This document shows positions 4,847 to 15,673 of a stretch of 39,901 nt of DNA, one piece after another. A program made the position numbers and the translations under genes. How positions within the stretch are numbered: the first letter of the stretch is position 1; every line of letters begins with the position of its first letter. The DNA comes from Propionibacteriaceae bacterium. GTDB taxonomy: Bacteria; Actinomycetota; Actinomycetes; Propionibacteriales; Propionibacteriaceae. A model generated the notes under the pieces. The model saw only the letters and a program-made list of their open reading frames with translations. It was not told the DNA's origin and made no database searches. Where the stretch lies: NCBI GenBank assembly GCA_009782915.1, contig WRIC01000003.1, positions 79,195-119,095 on the forward strand. The letters run 5' to 3'.

Positions 4847-4905
4847 GCAAACTGTCACGGCGAATATGTACCAACCAGCGGGACTCCACCTCGGGCAATC
4901 ATCAG

Positions 4906-4978
4906 TCTGGGCCCTGCGAGTCGCGGAGCCTGTGCTGCGGAGCGCGCTAGCGCGACTCGCAGTGCTCCGCAGGGTGAC
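4906..4978. repeat. Dispersed hairpin repeat, long-loop form (copy 4)
   Basis: TCTGGG, stem CCCTGCG, a long loop containing GCGCGCTAGCGCGACTC, stem CGCAGGG, TGAC. It sits between the tetR operator and the sugar kinase gene, followed 9 bases later by copy 5 in the opposite orientation. Confidence 0.8.
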
Positions 4979-4987
4979 ACCTACCCT

Positions 4988-5029
4988 GTCATTCCGCGGA
5001 GGGCGCAAGCCCGACTCGCGGAATCCAGA
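4988..5029. repeat. Dispersed hairpin repeat (copy 5)
   Basis: GTCA, stem TTCCGCG, a loop with GGGCGCAAGCCC (a small internal hairpin), stem CGCGGAA, TCCAGA. It is inverted relative to copy 4, making a tail-to-tail pair joined at the TGAC ends. The rest of the 4847-5165 intergenic region shows nothing else I can support except a possible TAGGGT -10 at 5155-5160 for the kinase gene. Confidence 0.8.
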
Positions 5030-5165
5030 TATGCAACCAGCAACGGTTGGTGAGTCTGTCGTGGTTGATCATGACACACAGACGCCGGAGGGGTGCGGAG
5101 CAACACTCTTCCCCTACTCTGAAAAGACACTGGTCGGGAGACCCGTGACGTACTAGGGTCAAGAC

Positions 5166-6110
5166 ATGGAAGAGATTTTCACAGGTCCTGAGATCCTGGT
5201 GATCGGGGAATCCTTGATTGATATCGTTCAACGTGAGGGCGCGAAATCCCAAGCCTGCCCGGGTGGTAGTCCCATGAATGTGGCCGTCGGATTAGGACGA
5301 CTGCTTCAGGCGCCCACCTTGGCGACATGGTTTGGCCGTGACAAGTACGGGAAGATGATTCGCAAACATTGCGAGGAATCCGGGGTGAGGATTCTACCCG
5401 GGTCAGACCAGGCCCGGCGTACCTCCACTGCGGTGGCTCAACTCGATGAACACGGCCACGCGACCTACACCTTCGACATTGATATGTCTCTTCCTGCCCT
5501 GCCTGAGAAGATCCCTGCATTGATTCACGTCGGCTCTCTGGGAGCCGTGCTCCAACCTGCACGCGACATCGTGCTCCCCTATTGCCAACGGGCACAGGGG
5601 CAATCCATGATTTTCTTCGACCCCAACTGTCGTCCTTCGATCATGAGATCGCCTGAGACAGTACGCCCGGTGGTCGAAGATTACGTTCGTACCTCAACTG
5701 TGGTGAAAGTCTCCGACGAAGACCTAGCGTGGCTCTACCCATCATCAGCCGATACCTACCAGGACCACGCCAAGCGCTGGCTGGAGGGGGGCACGACTAA
5801 ACTCGTGGTGGTGACCTTGGGAAGCGAGGGCGCCTGGGCGCTGACAGCTCAGTCAGAATTCACTGTTCCCGCTCACACCACCTCAGACGTGATCGACACT
5901 GTTGGTGCCGGTGACTCCTTCATGGCAGGGCTCATCTGGGAGACGATAGCGCAAGGATACCTGGAGAGTTCTTTTGGTTTGGTTCTGGGGGAGGAGCCCG
6001 AAATTGTGGAGTTCATTGTGACTGAGGCGTCAACAATGGCAGGAATAACCGTGTCCCGAGCTGGGGCAAACCCTCCCTGGCTTCGCGAATTGGAAAGTGG
6101 GCAGGCATGA
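5166..6110 (+). CDS. PfkB-family sugar kinase, probable fructokinase
   Basis: A 314-residue cytoplasmic kinase of the ribokinase/PfkB fold. The N-terminal substrate-side signature GGSPMNVAVGLGRL is at 33-46. The C-terminal ATP/anion-hole signature DTVGAGDSFMAGL is at 244-256, with catalytic Asp250. Length and motif spacing are normal for the family. Its stop overlaps the start of the AGE-family isomerase (ATGA), so the two are translationally coupled. With a mannose or related isomerase as partner, phosphorylation of fructose to fructose-6-phosphate is the most economical role. Sugar specificity in PfkB kinases cannot be read from motifs alone, so fructokinase is an inference. A weak TAGGGT lies 5 nt before the ATG and may be a leaderless -10 or a poor ribosome site. 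Confidence 0.85.
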   Translation: MEEIFTGPEILVIGESLIDIVQREGAKSQACPGGSPMNVAVGLGRLLQAPTLATWFGRDKYGKMIRKHCEESGVRILPGSDQARRTSTAVAQLDEHGHATYTFDIDMSLPALPEKIPALIHVGSLGAVLQPARDIVLPYCQRAQGQSMIFFDPNCRPSIMRSPETVRPVVEDYVRTSTVVKVSDEDLAWLYPSSADTYQDHAKRWLEGGTTKLVVVTLGSEGAWALTAQSEFTVPAHTTSDVIDTVGAGDSFMAGLIWETIAQGYLESSFGLVLGEEPEIVEFIVTEASTMAGITVSRAGANPPWLRELESGQA

Positions 6111-7672
6111 TTGTCGTTTCACCGCTGAACAATGAGTTCGCGACCCATGCGACAGAGCTCCTGGATTTTGCTCTCGGTTCGATCTGCGAGGAGGGTGGTT
6201 TCGGATGGTTAGGCGCTGCGGGTACTGTCGACCGTGCTCAGAATCGCCAACTGTGGATCAACTGCCGAATGACCCATGTTGCAGCGATCGGCACCCTCCT
6301 AGGTCACCCTGGGTGTTCAAAGATGCTCGACCATGGGGTACGCGCACTCACTGACCTCTTCTGTGACAATTGCCGAACTCCCACTCCCGTCTCCCTGCGC
6401 AATACTCCCGTCTCCCTGCGCGAAGTCGCAGGGCCCAGAAGACTCGATCCTGAACAACTGCGGAGTCTGGATTCTGCGAGTCGCTCCGCTCCGCAGAATG
6501 ACGTGGTGGATGAGTTCCCGCTAGGGTCCAGTGGGTGGTTTGACACCGTCGACTGGGAGGGGAACCCCACCAACGACACGAAGGCTGCGTACGCTCACGC
6601 GTTCGTGATCCTTGCCGCGTCAAGCGCTGTTGCTGCCGGATCGACGCAGGCCGTACCCCTCTTTGAGGACGCCCTCAGGGTTTCCACCAAGTTTTTCTGG
6701 GATGAGGAGTACGGCATGGTTGTTGAGGAGTGGGACCGCAGTTTCACCACCTGCTCGGATTATCGCGGTGTCAACGCGAACATGCACACCGTCGAAGCCT
6801 ACCTGGCAGCCGCAGACGTGATCGACCTACTCACCCCTCCCTCGTCACCCTGCGCGAAGTCGCAGGGCCCAGACTACGCAGCAGGACAACTGCGGAGTCT
6901 GGATTCTGCGAGTCTCGGAGCCTGTGCTGCGGAGCCCGCTAGGGCGACTCGCAGTGCTCCGCAGAATGACGGGCTGGGTGGGGCTCCACAGAATGACAGG
7001 GCTGGTGTGTGGCGAAACCGTGCTCTGCGGATCACCAACCGGGTGGTCAACCAGGAGGCACGAAACAACGACTGGCGAATCCCGGAACACTTCAACTCTC
7101 AGTGGATCCCCGACCTGGGCTACAACGAGGACACCCCGGCTGATCCTTTCCGCCCCTATGGTGCCACGATTGGTCACGGCTTGGAGTGGGCGCGACTATG
7201 CCTCCAACTGGGTGCAAGCCTTGACAACCCACCCGAGTGGATTCCTGAAGCTGCCGAAGCACTCTATGACCGCGCGCTCAGCGACGGCTGGAACAGCGAT
7301 GGGGCTGAGGGTTTCGTCTACACCACCGATTGGGTGGGTCAACCGGTGGTCCACGAGCGTATGCATTGGGTTCTCGCCGAAGCCATGGGTGCAAGTGCCG
7401 CCCTCACGACCTCGGGGGTACGCGACACCACGAGCGATCTGGAGAGCTGGTGGGCGTACGCCAAGCAACACCTCATCGACCCCGACCATGGCTCCTGGTT
7501 CCATGAACTGGATCGCCACAATCAACCGTCCGCCCTCGTGTGGAGTGGAAAACCCGACATCTATCACGCACTCCAGGCCGTACTCATTCCACGACTCCCA
7601 TTAACTCCAGCTATCGTGCCAGCACTAGCCTCGGGACTCTTGTTTGAGTCAACCCTGGGAACCACAGCGTAG
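6107..7672 (+). CDS. AGE-family sugar epimerase/isomerase (mannose isomerase-like) with two repeat-derived in-frame insertions
   Basis: 521 residues against about 400-420 for the family. Conserved AGE/YihS motifs include LWINCRMTH (49-57), KAAYAHAF (159-166), NANMHTVEA (223-231), GHGLEW with His357 and Glu360, RMHWVLAEA with His420, and GKPDIYHALQA with His487. All barrel motifs are intact and the frame is unbroken. Two segments, about residues 91-138 and 243-300, do not look like AGE protein. They are translations of the dispersed hairpin repeat, share LRSLDSAS and SAPQND, and fall between family motifs. Removing them restores the expected length. The enzyme probably interconverts mannose and fructose (or a related pair) for the coupled PfkB kinase. 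Whether the insert-bearing enzyme is active cannot be told from sequence. Confidence 0.87.
   Translation: MIVVSPLNNEFATHATELLDFALGSICEEGGFGWLGAAGTVDRAQNRQLWINCRMTHVAAIGTLLGHPGCSKMLDHGVRALTDLFCDNCRTPTPVSLRNTPVSLREVAGPRRLDPEQLRSLDSASRSAPQNDVVDEFPLGSSGWFDTVDWEGNPTNDTKAAYAHAFVILAASSAVAAGSTQAVPLFEDALRVSTKFFWDEEYGMVVEEWDRSFTTCSDYRGVNANMHTVEAYLAAADVIDLLTPPSSPCAKSQGPDYAAGQLRSLDSASLGACAAEPARATRSAPQNDGLGGAPQNDRAGVWRNRALRITNRVVNQEARNNDWRIPEHFNSQWIPDLGYNEDTPADPFRPYGATIGHGLEWARLCLQLGASLDNPPEWIPEAAEALYDRALSDGWNSDGAEGFVYTTDWVGQPVVHERMHWVLAEAMGASAALTTSGVRDTTSDLESWWAYAKQHLIDPDHGSWFHELDRHNQPSALVWSGKPDIYHALQAVLIPRLPLTPAIVPALASGLLFESTLGTTA
6389..6502. repeat. Hairpin-repeat pair inserted in frame in the AGE isomerase gene (copies 6 and 7)
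   Basis: A partial left arm (GTCTCCCTGCG at 6389-6399) is followed by a full short-loop unit at 6410-6439 (CCCTGCG-CGAAGT-CGCAGGG). After a 25-nt spacer an inverted unit follows at 6465-6502 (TTCTGCG...CGCAGAA, TGAC). The composite resembles bacterial interspersed mosaic elements. It adds sense codons only and keeps the frame. Confidence 0.85.
6844..6998. repeat. Hairpin-repeat pair inserted in frame in the AGE isomerase gene (copies 8 and 9)
   Basis: A short-loop unit at 6844-6873, then a spacer close to that of the first insertion, then an inverted long-loop unit at 6897-6970. A duplicated right-end fragment (CCACAGAATGAC) follows at 6984-6995. Same composite layout as the first insertion, again in frame and without stops. 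Confidence 0.85.
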
Positions 7673-8422: not shown

Positions 8423-8457
8423 TTTCCCCATGATTGAAGTAACACCACCCTCTAGTA

Positions 8458-8481
8458 GCCACCCTGATGATAAAGGGTGGC
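8458..8481. terminator. Stem-loop between the sigma-like gene and the DUF4913 gene
   Basis: Perfect 8-bp stem GCCACCCT / AGGGTGGC around an 8-nt loop, lying between two convergent stop codons. No T-tract follows on either strand, so a role as terminator rests on position and stem strength. Confidence 0.5.
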
Positions 8482-8524
8482 ACCCTCATACACGGGAAAG
8501 GGAGTTCTCTATCCCAGATTGCCG

Positions 8525-8962
8525 CTAATAATCGTAGTTATTTCGAACCACTTTCAGGAGTTGCATATCTAACCTTCCTTCCGGCGCTTCGACAACAGGG
8601 AGCCTCCTCAGTTTCGAATTAGGTGAACCCGGAGTTTTTGTCTTCGCATAGAAAGGACCATCCGGGCTGAGGATAACTTTCATATGAGGATCAAGATGGT
8701 CCAAGATCCAGTTGCTTAAAGCAGCCGCATCCCTGCTCACGCGCGCTACTTCATAAGAACGCCACAGAACTTCAAATCGCATACAGACCTCATCCGAATC
8801 CCACCATTCTTCACTCCAAACATTTGTTCTTCCATCAATAGGTCGCAGATACCATGAAGCTATCCATCGAACGAATTCTTCCATCGTGAGATACTTCGCT
8901 GGATCCCAATTAGTATTATTTTCACCTTCGTAATACATTAGATCCCACATAGTGCCCATCAT
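8525..8962 (-). CDS. DUF4913 family protein
   Basis: About 145 residues. The core matches DUF4913: FVRWIASWYLRPIDG, then VWSEEWWDSDEVCMRFEVLW, then LSNWILDHLDPHMKVILSP followed by DGPF. Function is unknown; the family is common on actinobacterial plasmids and integrated elements. The frame is open further upstream to 9013, but AAAGGA stands just before the tandem ATGs at 8962 and 8959, which I prefer. The gene is AT-richer (about 40% GC in a sampled stretch) than the housekeeping genes around it. It is divergent from the putative nuclease gene, with a 239-bp gap between the two starts. I infer it arrived with the defence island. Confidence 0.75.
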   Translation of the reverse strand: MMGTMWDLMYYEGENNTNWDPAKYLTMEEFVRWIASWYLRPIDGRTNVWSEEWWDSDEVCMRFEVLWRSYEVARVSRDAAALSNWILDHLDPHMKVILSPDGPFYAKTKTPGSPNSKLRRLPVVEAPEGRLDMQLLKVVRNNYDY

Positions 8963-9201
8963 TGTCCTTTCACCAGAGTTCAGCCACAATACGAAGTACC
9001 AACGACAAAACACGCCAAGACACGCCGGAAAAAATCGGTCACACGTACGATTTTCGGCACATATTTACTACCATACCTCGACACCTGCTACGCGACTCCC
9101 AACCAGCGCGCTACTGAGGTGTGGAGAACCCCCAAAAGTAATAACACCCACTGCTAGACTTCAAGAGCCATGCAGATATCAACAACGGTCTGGGGGATCT
9201 C

Positions 9202-10329
9202 ATGAATAGATACACCAACGAACAATTGGCACAATATGCATCCGCTCTAGCGAAAGTCGCCTCATTATCAAATCTCTTCTCGGAGAGTAGCACCCCTTTC
9301 ATCCACTATCGAGCGACCGAGTACTTGTATGCGCGAGCCTTCGAAGCAAGAAACCTGGCCCGATCGGATATTGCCATCGATGCAAAACTCGGGACTGTTG
9401 GTGTGGGGTTGAAAACCTTCGTATACAGCAACCGTCCCAAGTACGAGAAGATCGCAGAGTTTAATCGAGATCAACCCAGTTTCAATTCACTTCGCCCTCT
9501 CGACAAGATCAGGAGAATTGCTGAATTACGTAACGAGAGGATTCGCGTTGCGGGGGAAATTGCCAGTGTTCAAACCTTCGTCTACCACTGCATTGCCCGC
9601 AGTCCACGGGCTCTCAGCGTTTTCGAGCAGGAGATGCCATATATCAACCTTGACGATATCGAAATACAGAATTCAAACTCAGGCACCATCAGTTTCTCCG
9701 ATGGCCGAGAAAGCTACCGATTCAATCAATCGAAGAGCACTCTCTTCAAAGAATTCTTCACGCAAACGTACCTCGTGGAACAGCCAGTGAATATCCTCCG
9801 AGACCCCTTTGAGGTCCTCGACTCACTCAACCTTGTGGTGGAGCCAGCCTCGTTCGGGCGACTTGATGTCGAGCAAACCCCCCAAGAGTCTGTCGTACTT
9901 CCTCTCTACAGTACGAGGGGCAAACCATCAGTTGAAGAAAAGAGCGGGCTCAACCAATGGAACGCAAGCGGTCGAGTACGCCACATCGATGAGGTGTACA
10001 TCCCTGTTCCCGCAGTCATTCATCAGAAGTATCCAGGTTTCTTTCCACCACGCTCAGTTCCGTTCGATGTACATTTCCCCAACGGTTCTACACTGTCCAT
10101 GAGCTTATGCCAAGGTAAATCTCATGGAAAGGCGCTGATGAGCAATCCCAATAACACTCTAGGGAGTTGGTTGCTGAGAGATGTCTTGCACCTCGCAGAA
10201 GGAGAACTTGCAACGTACAGTCTTCTGGAAAAGATTGGCATCGACTCCGTAGAAGTGTCCAAGATGGACGATCAATACTATATAGATTTTAAACAGCTGG
10301 GCAGCTACGAGCAGTTCGTGTCGGACTAG
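9202..10329 (+). CDS. Putative type II restriction endonuclease with a B3-like C-terminal domain
   Basis: 375 residues, no signal peptide or membrane segment. The C-terminal ~110 residues (VYIPVPAVIHQKYPGFFPPR onward, then GKALMSNPNNTLGSWLLRDV, GIDSVEV, YYIDF) resemble the B3-like DNA-recognition domain found at the C-terminus of NgoFVII-type restriction enzymes. The N-terminal half has a compact conserved-looking block, SDIAIDAKLGTVGVGLKTF (55-73), whose Asp60, Lys62 and Lys71 might belong to a nuclease site; I cannot assign a PD-(D/E)XK or PLD core with certainty. A GGGGG stretch precedes the ATG at a usable distance. It is convergent with the LexA-methyltransferase gene and shares its stop site, CTAG at 10326-10329. 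By context it is the likely cognate nuclease. Confidence 0.6.
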   Translation: MNRYTNEQLAQYASALAKVASLSNLFSESSTPFIHYRATEYLYARAFEARNLARSDIAIDAKLGTVGVGLKTFVYSNRPKYEKIAEFNRDQPSFNSLRPLDKIRRIAELRNERIRVAGEIASVQTFVYHCIARSPRALSVFEQEMPYINLDDIEIQNSNSGTISFSDGRESYRFNQSKSTLFKEFFTQTYLVEQPVNILRDPFEVLDSLNLVVEPASFGRLDVEQTPQESVVLPLYSTRGKPSVEEKSGLNQWNASGRVRHIDEVYIPVPAVIHQKYPGFFPPRSVPFDVHFPNGSTLSMSLCQGKSHGKALMSNPNNTLGSWLLRDVLHLAEGELATYSLLEKIGIDSVEVSKMDDQYYIDFKQLGSYEQFVSD

Positions 10330-11885
10330 ATGACGCGAAGCATTTGTTCAGCTAAGCGAGCGATCACTGTCACAGTAACCGAGTTTCCTGCCTGTTTGTA
10401 CAACGAGCTATCAGCTATGTCGGGAAGTTTGTAGTCCTCAGGAAAACCCTGGACGCGGAAGCACTCTCGTGGGGTGAGCTTCCTGATTCCTTTCCCATCG
10501 AAAATGATGGGGACGTTGTGACCACCCATACCCATATTGGCCGTCAGCGTGGGGCACACGCCCTTCTTGTTTTTCCGTACGTACTGCCGGCGCCATTGAT
10601 AGACCTCATTCTCTTCTATTACCTCATTTTTCAAGTGATCGTAGAGTGGCTTGTTGTCGTAATAGTATTTTTCCTCGACCTCTATGTCCAGCATGTCTTG
10701 CATGGTCCTCTTGAGTGGCACTGGCTCAGGAAATTCGAACTGTTCGGTTTTGTCAGGATCCTGAAACCCCACAATGTATATACGTTCACGATTCTGAGGC
10801 ACATTCCCGTACGCCATCGAATTAAGCACGCGCGCCTTAACGAAGTAGCCAAGGTCCTGCAGTGTTTCTTCAATGATTCGGTAGGTTTTTCCATTGTCAT
10901 GAGTACGGAGGTTCTTCACGTTCTCCAGGAGGAATCCTGATGGTTGCTTTGCCTTAATAATCCGTGCCACATCAAAGAACAGATTTCCTCGTCCCAGTTC
11001 GTCATCAAATCCATGTCTATACCCTGCTACGGAGAATGCTTGGCAGGGGAAACCACCCAAGACAAAATCACAATCAGGAATATCCTCATCAGGGATTTGA
11101 GTGATATCCTCCACAGTCAGCTTCGGAGCATTGAAGTTCTTGTTGTAGGTGTCAGCACATTTCGGCTCGAAATCATTAGCAAAAACCGTTGAAAAACCAG
11201 CCTTTTCGAAGCCAAGCCGGATGCCACCCACCCCGGCAAAGAGATCCAGTGTCTTCCACTCTTGGGTCGGAACAACCTCTGCCCTGGGTGAGGTGGCCAC
11301 GGCATAATCCCTGATCACTTTCCATACAATCCCCCTGACTTCGATCTCTTTCCTATAGATCGGTAGCATAGACTGATTGGCCGGCTGTAAGCGAAATCCT
11401 TTCTTGTCTCGAAATAGTTTCTTCAAAGTGGCTTGGTCTCCATCGACGATAGCAACAACCGTTTGCCCGTTTTCTGCTGATGTTTGGCGCTTGATCACCA
11501 CAACATCGCCATCGAGTATCCCTTCGTCCATCATGCTATCCCCCACGACTTCGAGGGCAAAAAAGTCTTGATTCTTGGGTAAATTCGGAACCTTCACACA
11601 AGCAACAGCGTCTTCGATAGCTTCAATAGGTAGCCCCGCAGTTATTCGCCCCACGATGGGAACGTCTCTGCTTGCCACATCACTGTCTTCGACCAGTCGA
11701 TACCCACCAAATTCATCTGCTTCCAAAATTCCATCCTCCAGCAGACCTTTCACATGGGTATGCACTGTGGAAACGGACTTGAGCTCCACCGCGACTCGCA
11801 CTTCATCCAGAGTTGGGAAACGTCCATTCTCCATTGAATACTCTCGGATGAAACTGACAATCTGCGCTTTTCGGTTCTTGCTCAC
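10326..11885 (-). CDS. LexA-like repressor/self-protease fused to cytosine-C5 DNA methyltransferase
   Basis: 519 residues in one uninterrupted frame. Residues 1-65 are a LexA winged helix (GRFPTLDEVRVAVELKSVST). Residues 75-192 are an S24 peptidase domain with an Ala83-Gly84 cleavage bond, nucleophile Ser117 (VVGDSMM) and general-base Lys155 (ATLKKLF). After a short linker (about 193-210) comes a complete m5C methyltransferase: motif I DLFAGVGG (214-221), motif IV GGFPCQAF with catalytic Cys281, motif VI ENV (321-323), motif VIII QNRERIY (364-370), a target-recognition region around 375-465, and motifs IX-X (CFRVQGFPEDY; QAGNS at 498-502). All catalytic residues are present. It starts with GTG; an upstream ATG is followed by a stop. 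TAGAGT 6 nt before the GTG suggests a leaderless message. The domain pairing is unusual. Inferred role: protects DNA from the neighbouring nuclease, represses its own promoter, and loses its DNA-binding part on RecA-stimulated self-cleavage. Confidence 0.92.
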   Translation of the reverse strand: MSKNRKAQIVSFIREYSMENGRFPTLDEVRVAVELKSVSTVHTHVKGLLEDGILEADEFGGYRLVEDSDVASRDVPIVGRITAGLPIEAIEDAVACVKVPNLPKNQDFFALEVVGDSMMDEGILDGDVVVIKRQTSAENGQTVVAIVDGDQATLKKLFRDKKGFRLQPANQSMLPIYRKEIEVRGIVWKVIRDYAVATSPRAEVVPTQEWKTLDLFAGVGGIRLGFEKAGFSTVFANDFEPKCADTYNKNFNAPKLTVEDITQIPDEDIPDCDFVLGGFPCQAFSVAGYRHGFDDELGRGNLFFDVARIIKAKQPSGFLLENVKNLRTHDNGKTYRIIEETLQDLGYFVKARVLNSMAYGNVPQNRERIYIVGFQDPDKTEQFEFPEPVPLKRTMQDMLDIEVEEKYYYDNKPLYDHLKNEVIEENEVYQWRRQYVRKNKKGVCPTLTANMGMGGHNVPIIFDGKGIRKLTPRECFRVQGFPEDYKLPDIADSSLYKQAGNSVTVTVIARLAEQMLRVI

Positions 11886-11891
11886 AGCATG

Positions 11892-11912
11892 ACTCTACTA
11901 GAAAAAAGTAGA
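11892..11912 (-). promoter_or_regulatory. Predicted -10 box with overlapping inverted-repeat operator of the LexA-methyltransferase gene
   Basis: Inverted repeat TCTACT - 7 nt - AGTAGA spans 11894-11912 with perfect 6-bp arms. On the minus strand the proximal arm overlaps TAGAGT (11892-11897), a TANNNT -10 box located 6 nt before the GTG start. A dimeric winged-helix protein bound here would block the promoter. The spaced-dyad layout is LexA-like, but the half-site differs from the E. coli CTGT and the actinobacterial GAAC/GTTC types. Confidence 0.6.
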
Positions 11913-11947
11913 AAACTGGAGCGACACAACACTTGGACAACACTAGC

Positions 11948-15451: not shown

Positions 15452-15583
15452 GTCATTCTGCGCGAAGTCGCAGAATCCAGACTACGCAGTTGCTCTTTGG
15501 TCATTCCGTGCGAAGTCACGGAATCCAGACTCCACAGTTGTTTAAATGTGATGTCTGGACCCTGCGACTACGCGCAGGGTGAC
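15452..15583. repeat. Three dispersed hairpin repeats (copies 10-12)
   Basis: Copy 10 (15452-15481): TTCTGCG-CGAAGT-CGCAGAA. Copy 11 (15500-15529): TTCCGTG-CGAAGT-CACGGAA. Copy 12 (15553-15583, inverted): CCCTGCG-ACTACG-CGCAGGG. Copies 10 and 11 share the loop and flanks but differ at two stem positions, both compensated on the other arm. They lie in the gap between the convergent M13 and prenyl synthase genes. Confidence 0.85.
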
Positions 15584-15673
15584 GGTGGTGGGGGTGTAGC
15601 AGGGTGACGGTGGTGGGGGTGTAGCAGGGTGACGGTGGTGGGAGTGTAGCAGGGTGACGGTGGTGGGGGTTTA
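15574..15673. repeat. Tandem repeat, four 25-bp units
   Basis: Units start at 15574, 15599, 15624 and 15649, each beginning GCAGGGTGACGGTGGTGG. Units 3 and 4 differ by one base or a short end change. The first unit begins inside the right arm of hairpin copy 12, so the array appears to have grown from that repeat end. A further small stem CCCCA/TGGGG (15685-15703) follows. Confidence 0.9.

Follow-up and report, generated by a model that had tools for sequence, protein, structure and literature searches.

Type II restriction-modification (R-M) systems must spare their own host, which they are known to achieve, among other means, through controller proteins or through methylases that carry small DNA-binding domains. 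Among the latter, the SsoII/Ecl18kI-type methyltransferases carry an N-terminal DNA-binding part on a C5 cytosine methylase and repress their own gene within an R-M system; residues 1-55 read a 15-bp palindrome, with no protease and no damage input (PMC6100179). Other Type II systems place the balance between restriction and modification under dedicated transcriptional control through C proteins (PMC6237814). In the LexA repressors, which belong to the S24 peptidase family, direct-repeat operators have arisen several times (PMC7739468, PMC8565304, PMC3323433). Here, we describe a gene that joins a complete LexA to a complete m5C DNA methyltransferase, located beside a restriction endonuclease gene in a stretch of 39,901 nucleotides (hereafter, the window) of a Propionibacteriaceae bacterium (assembly GCA_009782915.1, contig WRIC01000003.1, positions 79,195 to 119,095). 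The sequence makes it fairly probable that this fusion provides the modification function of a Type II R-M system acquired by horizontal transfer, in which the methylase would act as its own damage-responsive repressor. In a literature search of titles and abstract openings, LexA-methylase fusions were undescribed, although a mention in Sanchez-Osuna 2017, on LexA in Patescibacteria, is possible; the words methylase and methyltransferase are absent from PMC3765255.

A complete LexA and a complete methyltransferase in one frame

The fusion gene (10326..11885, minus strand) encodes a protein of 519 amino acids, from a GTG start at 11885 to a stop codon ending at 10326. It is a single open frame on the minus strand, and the plus-strand reading in that frame is interrupted by stops. 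From the N- to the C-terminus, the protein is characterized by a winged-helix DNA-binding domain (11718..11879, minus strand; Pfam LexA_DNA_bind, residues 3-56, 25.5 bits versus a cut-off of 23.7), an S24 self-protease domain (11328..11663, minus strand; Pfam Peptidase_S24, residues 75-186, 90.1 bits) and a C5 cytosine methyltransferase domain (10341..11258, minus strand; Pfam DNA_methylase, residues 210-515, 304 bits). The NCBIfam LexA equivalog TIGR00498 and the dcm model TIGR00675 were both matched, with 139.5 and 333.9 bits (cut-offs 110.95 and 100.65, respectively). The protease part contains the predicted cleavage bond Ala83-Gly84 (11634..11639), the catalytic Ser117 (codon 11535..11537) and the catalytic Lys155 (codon 11421..11423), and the methylase part contains the motifs FAGVGG, PCQ with Cys281 (codon 11043-11045), ENV, QNRERIY and QAGNS, all on the minus strand. 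An earlier note made from the letters of the window had read both complete proteins and every one of these motifs in one frame, and the Pfam and NCBIfam matches bear it out.

In the AlphaFold model, the methylase was confident, the LexA part, modelled from an alignment with few relatives, was moderate, and residues 171-207 were of low confidence. The best PDB matches of the methylase part in a Foldseek search were M.HhaI.

Partner endonuclease

Convergent with the fusion, and overlapping the stop end of its gene by 4 bp, a Type II restriction endonuclease (R) of 375 amino acids with an NgoAVII-type B3 DNA-binding domain is encoded on the plus strand (9202..10329). It matched REase_II in PADLOC with 293.9 bits; its N-terminal part gave a weak PD-(D/E)XK-like match, which leaves a PLD nuclease possible. 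An ATPase family comparable to the N-protein of NgoAVII/CglI-type R-M systems was found in none of the eight window proteins scanned.

The same endonuclease and methylase families lie side by side in Saccharibacteria TM7i, Priestia, Finegoldia and Caldicellulosiruptor. When named genomes were scanned with an alignment of R, a methylase open reading frame (ORF) was found in 72 of the best 80 of 264 loci; only one of these 72 was a LexA fusion, so that methylases without LexA are the usual companions of this R family, and four were RadC fusions.

These RadC-methylase fusions (UPF0758_N and RadC JAB; L047 2218-3975, L059 2230-3966, L071 2232-3965 and L078 2237-3955) carry a methylase of the window's family beside an endonuclease of the window's R family, and they form one clade in the methylase tree. 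RadC is a second repair-protein fusion on this methylase family. Moreover, genes of very-short-patch repair endonucleases adjoin two LexA-less relatives of the window system (L022 5264-5686 and L025 1675-2106).

Spread of LexA-methylase fusions

Saccharibacteria TM7i (CP075337.1) encodes the same fusion, with 346 of 514 positions identical (67%) over both domains. There, too, the fusion is convergent with an R protein, which is 55-56% identical to that of the window; apart from the fusion, no S24 protein was found in the TM7i genome. We sampled 379 genomes of TM7i's phylum, which we take to be Patescibacteria in GTDB terms, and 295 genomes of its family. Genomes of this phylum yielded 22 further LexA-methyltransferase fusions, giving a total of 23 with that of the window: eight on C5 methylases (the window, TM7i, G501, G715, G580, G642, G1100 and G986), 13 on N6/N4 methylases and two on D12 methylases. 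The phylum sample also held 16 further long LexA frames, 15 of which were fusions (13 N6_N4_Mtase and 2 D12); the frame of G802 was rejected as two adjacent genes, as was a match in G502 that spans two stops. A fusion was carried by at least 20 of the 379 genomes in the phylum sample; in the family sample, the number was 3 of 295. RecA was present in all seven C5-fusion genomes of this phylum that were searched.

Outside all of these counts, a 24th fusion, of LexA with an N6/N4 methylase, was observed at 773-2218 of the IMG/VR contig L257, the only one among the best 80 of at least 222 relatives in a scan with the LexA profile. Since this fusion sits on an IMG/VR contig, the LexA-fusion class may travel also on viral or plasmid-like elements. 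With the window fusion as query, the IMG/VR scan gave one R-M system without LexA (L011).

Among 396 genomes of the window's own phylum, the fusion was found only in the window's own at E <= 1e-40, although LexA joined to other methylases might escape so strict a cut-off. At E <= 1e-10, 57 relatives were compared, and no match but that of the window itself spanned LexA and the whole methylase; the match in G402 covered residues 74-287, across two stops. Long LexA frames in G434, G427 and G442 were rejected as fusions because LexA lies at the frame end. For the phylum of a Clostridium locus (L036), 398 genomes were covered, and no LexA match with an open frame longer than 366 amino acids was observed among the matches listed; Pseudomonadota lie outside the samples. 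The earlier note had treated the fusion as one odd protein; it belongs to a modular class that recurs, for the most part in TM7i's phylum.

Genes beside the fusions

The 3' neighbour of each fusion, defined as the nearest 3' ORF of at least 100 amino acids, was convergent, at a distance of no more than about 40 bp, in 19 of the 23 cases, on the same strand in three (L167, L180 and L185) and far off in one (L177). A restriction endonuclease was identified beside 17 fusions by Pfam or our own R profile, and beside 18 when PADLOC was added (REase_II, neighbour of L165). The 17 belonged to ten families, several of which presumably share one nuclease fold: NgoFVII-type (window, TM7i, L166 and L167), PDDEXK_5, MvaI_BcnI (two), BsaWI (two), EcoRV, ScaI, HindIII, MutH, BglII and MamI (three). 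The neighbours of L168, L170 and L183 had no family match in Pfam, the R profile, NCBIfam or PADLOC, and that of L185 was a second methylase. An adjacent nuclease, whose constancy the earlier note had raised as a question, was thus present by family match in the window and in 18 of the 23 fusions overall, the rest being without a matched endonuclease.

Unfused arrangements, in which a methylase gene immediately follows a lexA of its own, were also observed in G502, G802 and G978. The pair in G502 adjoins a HindVP-family endonuclease; in G978 (L345 3400-5204), the stop of a lexA of 206 amino acids and the start of a C5 methylase gene overlap. At L172 (G613), a LexA-N6/N4 fusion accompanied by an MvaI/BcnI-type endonuclease has, divergent from it, a LexA-less C5 methylase of the window's family. 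At L167, the NgoFVII-type endonuclease beside the fusion is split into two ORFs (5563-6570), so this system may have lost restriction. A PD-Lambda-3_B-like protein (L177 2995-3864) is divergent from the LexA-D12 fusion that lacks a close 3' ORF.

Conservation and phylogeny

Ala83, Gly84, Ser117 and Lys155 were invariant in an alignment of all 23 fusions. As the bond and both catalytic residues are kept in 23 out of 23 fusions on three methylase families, the protease appears to be selected whatever the methylase.

In a LexA tree of 58 rows, the LexA parts of the eight C5 fusions formed one group (100/96), with the window sister to G1100 (100/95) and then to TM7i (100/93). Another group contained 19 of the 20 standalone LexAs of TM7i's phylum (99/86), and the fused LexA parts stood apart from actinobacterial LexA. 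The methylase tree, built from 39 of 87 rows (those of at least 400 bits, plus all C5 fusions), agreed with the LexA tree on the window, G1100 and TM7i (99/94 and 100/97). The methylase of G642 was far from the others while its LexA was close to that of G501, a pattern that suggests an exchange of methylases behind one LexA module. Support for a group of all fused LexAs was weak (85/45), and the D12 fusion L177 fell outside it; one or several fusion events are therefore both compatible with the tree. The one standalone protein outside the group of 19, L192 (L256 3791-4399, in G680), joins a fused LexA in the tree; its gene lies between regulator and dehydrogenase genes.

A putative operator at the fusion promoters

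Upstream of the window fusion, the direct repeat TTTCTA-N4-TTTCTA, with a period of 10 (11899..11914, minus strand), constitutes a putative operator. No second perfect copy was found in the window, and none of 200 shuffles scored as high. A putative -10-like hexamer, TAGAGT (11892..11897, minus strand), lies 6 nt before the GTG; the same spacing before the start codon was observed in TM7i and G1100, corresponding to a leaderless-type arrangement. More generally, most of the fusion promoters showed a direct repeat TTTC[G/T].. with a period of 10-11, adjoining a TANNNT hexamer.

We scored this repeat in 25 LexA-methylase promoters (the 23 fusions and the two separate pairs of G502 and G802) and in 126 control upstreams of other ORFs of at least 150 amino acids at the same loci. 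A score of at least 9 was reached by 20 of the 25 promoters versus 10 of the 126 controls, and a score of 10 by 13 versus 1, respectively; the motif was picked by eye from these promoters before being scored, which makes the statistics optimistic, and the controls were mechanical ORFs, not curated genes. Both points weigh against the operator, as does the fact that five of the 25 promoters (L167, L169, L171, L173 and L183) were at shuffle level, with at least 23% of shuffles scoring as high. At L176, the best-scoring repeat differed from the promoter-proximal copy.

The fifth base of the repeat varied with the residue that the recognition helix has at HxH: Q, E, N or Y occurred with G (12 out of 12) and F or T with T (5 out of 5), an association that is uncorrected for kinship and is weakened to that extent. 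With H at this residue, the fifth base was mixed (3 G and 2 T); three promoters had no qualifying repeat. The window (residue T, base T) and its sister G1100 (Q and G) differ in both together.

In the TM7i genome, the exact operator was found only at the fusion's own promoter, with two further matches at three mismatches versus one for a backward control. Several standalone lexA promoters of TM7i's phylum showed, by eye, a TTCG direct repeat with a period of 11 that was not above shuffles. The Gram-positive LexA box GAAC-N4-GTTC was rejected as the operator, with none within one mismatch in 11886-11947 and 20 matches in the window, which is chance level. No copy of the TTTC.. repeat was found at the window endonuclease gene, whose transcription is probably independent. 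Taken together, the sequence supports autorepression of the fusion at its own promoter.

Repeats at the fusions' own promoters would also be expected if the LexA part were only a DNA-binding autorepressor, like the short N-terminal domain through which M.SsoII represses its own gene (PMC6100179), and its protease an unused relic. An unused protease should, however, decay in some fusions, and the Ala-Gly bond, the serine and the lysine are intact in each of them; we consider this explanation rather unlikely.

Proposed mechanism

The earlier note had proposed a damage switch, and this proposal is partly supported by the complete fusion, the adjacent endonuclease, the retained cleavage residues and the putative operator. 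Because of the last two, the sequence is most naturally read as autoregulation combined with a damage switch. Intact fusion dimers would bind the TTTC.. direct repeat at their own promoter and keep the methylase low. In two-hybrid work, proteins fused to the C-terminus of LexA are tolerated, so a methylase at this end need not block binding. RecA filaments would form after DNA breaks, including those that the partner endonuclease makes where sites are under-methylated, and the S24 domain, judging from its conserved residues, would then cut Ala83-Gly84. Cleavage would separate the DNA-binding domain from the methylase and open the promoter, and a methylase fragment of residues 84-519 would remain, off the operator. 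Methylation would rise and self-cutting would stop, the whole acting as a restriction thermostat. In a naive recipient, with no repressor yet present, the methylase would be expressed early.

The same cleavage could instead lead to damage-triggered suicide, if it destabilised the methylase so that methylation fell and the endonuclease killed the damaged or infected cell. LexA fragments are known to be degraded in E. coli. R-M systems can also kill cells that lose methylation (PMC3874152). The cut, however, lies 126 residues before the methylase domain (84 versus 210), and the model stretch 171-207 is of low confidence, so that cleavage need not damage the methylase; derepression, moreover, would act the opposite way. 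Suicide is therefore, in our view, unlikely.

Further observations count against the main reading. Cleavage might lead to degradation of the methylase fragment instead of its release, and the Pfam score of the winged helix is barely above its cut-off. In the closest fusion, that of G1100, the gene on the 3' side is unrelated and matches no known family, which means that pairing with R is not fixed. The standalone L192 groups with a fused LexA and no R-M gene was found among the four neighbours scanned, so the fused LexAs are not a clean lineage. In addition, no RecA was found in the assembly that contains the window, which is 93.5% complete; since RecA is present in 18 out of 18 other members of the genus, an assembly gap is likely but unproven.

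An inserted island of probable foreign origin

The fusion and R belong to a low-GC island (8423..11947) inserted between two collinear convergent genes. Its third gene encodes a DUF4913 protein (8525..9013, minus strand) whose relatives occur on actinobacterial plasmids. The three insert genes have a GC content of 45-49% versus 57-60% in five flanking genes. In the nearest genus member (G401, chosen by the M13 gene), the flanking genes are collinear, with 56-83% identity, and DUF4913, R and the fusion are missing, the two flanking matches ending about 70 bp apart. Neither R nor the fusion was found at the insertion site in four relatives, one of which (L255) lacks the left flank.

Leucobacter is an actinobacterium. 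TM7i, which together with its family contains the fusions nearest to that of the window, lives on Leucobacter (PMC8672522). Transfer of the system from a Saccharibacteria-type donor into the window's actinobacterium is most likely, as the simplest reading of an uneven sampling, and the plasmid-borne relatives of DUF4913 hint at a plasmid step. With the window fusion as query, none of 1513 matched phage records covered 80% of the fusion, and with the G1100 fusion none of 1616 did. Among 5000 plasmid records, at least one covered 80% of the query.

Two S24 proteins and one C5 methylase were found in the window genome. The host's own LexA is separate from the fusion and groups in the tree with LexAs of the same order; its closest relatives among eight plasmid-record matches listed were from Streptomyces and Kitasatospora, and on these grounds the window genome is taken as actinobacterial. 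This bears on the idea that the fusion is the cell's global SOS repressor, the methylase merely riding along, as its being the sole S24 protein found in TM7i might indicate. Beyond the host having a LexA of its own, the fused LexA parts are separate from 19 of the 20 standalone LexAs of TM7i's phylum and from actinobacterial LexA, their neighbours are predominantly R-M genes, and TM7i has the exact operator at the fusion promoter only, the other matches being near control level; we regard a global role as very unlikely. Finally, an assembly artefact, which the earlier note had named as a possible refutation, or a chance frame joining lexA to a methylase gene can be dismissed given the in-frame fusions in TM7i and 21 other genomes and the 67% identity with TM7i over both domains.

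Elsewhere in the window, dispersed REP-like repeats of about 37-78 nt were observed in both orientations (98-139, 227-270, 4904-5031, 6410-6980 and 15452-15593), some of them inside an epimerase-like gene (6107-7672). A 25-nt tandem repeat (15574-15673) lies downstream of the M13 peptidase gene.

Significance and comparison with known systems

Beyond the window, we lean slightly towards a general class of Type II R-M systems that are gated by damage and belong to TM7i's phylum. In it, LexA on three methylase families, paired with endonucleases of at least ten, would allow the methylase to sense and correct the breaks of its partner (closed-loop restriction alleviation), one member having crossed from a Saccharibacteria-like epibiont to an actinobacterium, a host of the same kind as that of TM7i. 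If so, a methylase acting as a self-cleaving damage sensor would tie protection to the damage caused by failed protection, a feedback that our literature search did not find. It would give restriction alleviation a counterpart among Type II systems and make LexA a portable control cassette, and it could account for the safe carriage of restriction systems by epibionts with reduced genomes.

The window endonuclease resembles the R proteins of NgoAVII and CglI, which are B3-domain endonucleases. With SsoII-type methyltransferases, the fusion shares an N-terminal DNA-binding part on a C5 methylase; unlike them, it does not have a short DNA-binding domain as its only regulatory part, but a full LexA with self-protease, together with a putative direct-repeat operator and a range of three methylase families. 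C proteins are separate small helix-turn-helix proteins, whereas in the fusion the regulator would be the methylase itself, probably cleavable. With LexA, the fusion has in common all catalytic and DNA-binding parts, and its putative direct-repeat operator is of a kind known for LexA in other groups (PMC8565304, PMC7739468, PMC3323433); it differs from LexA in its C-terminal methylase, its R-M context and its mostly own phylogenetic group.

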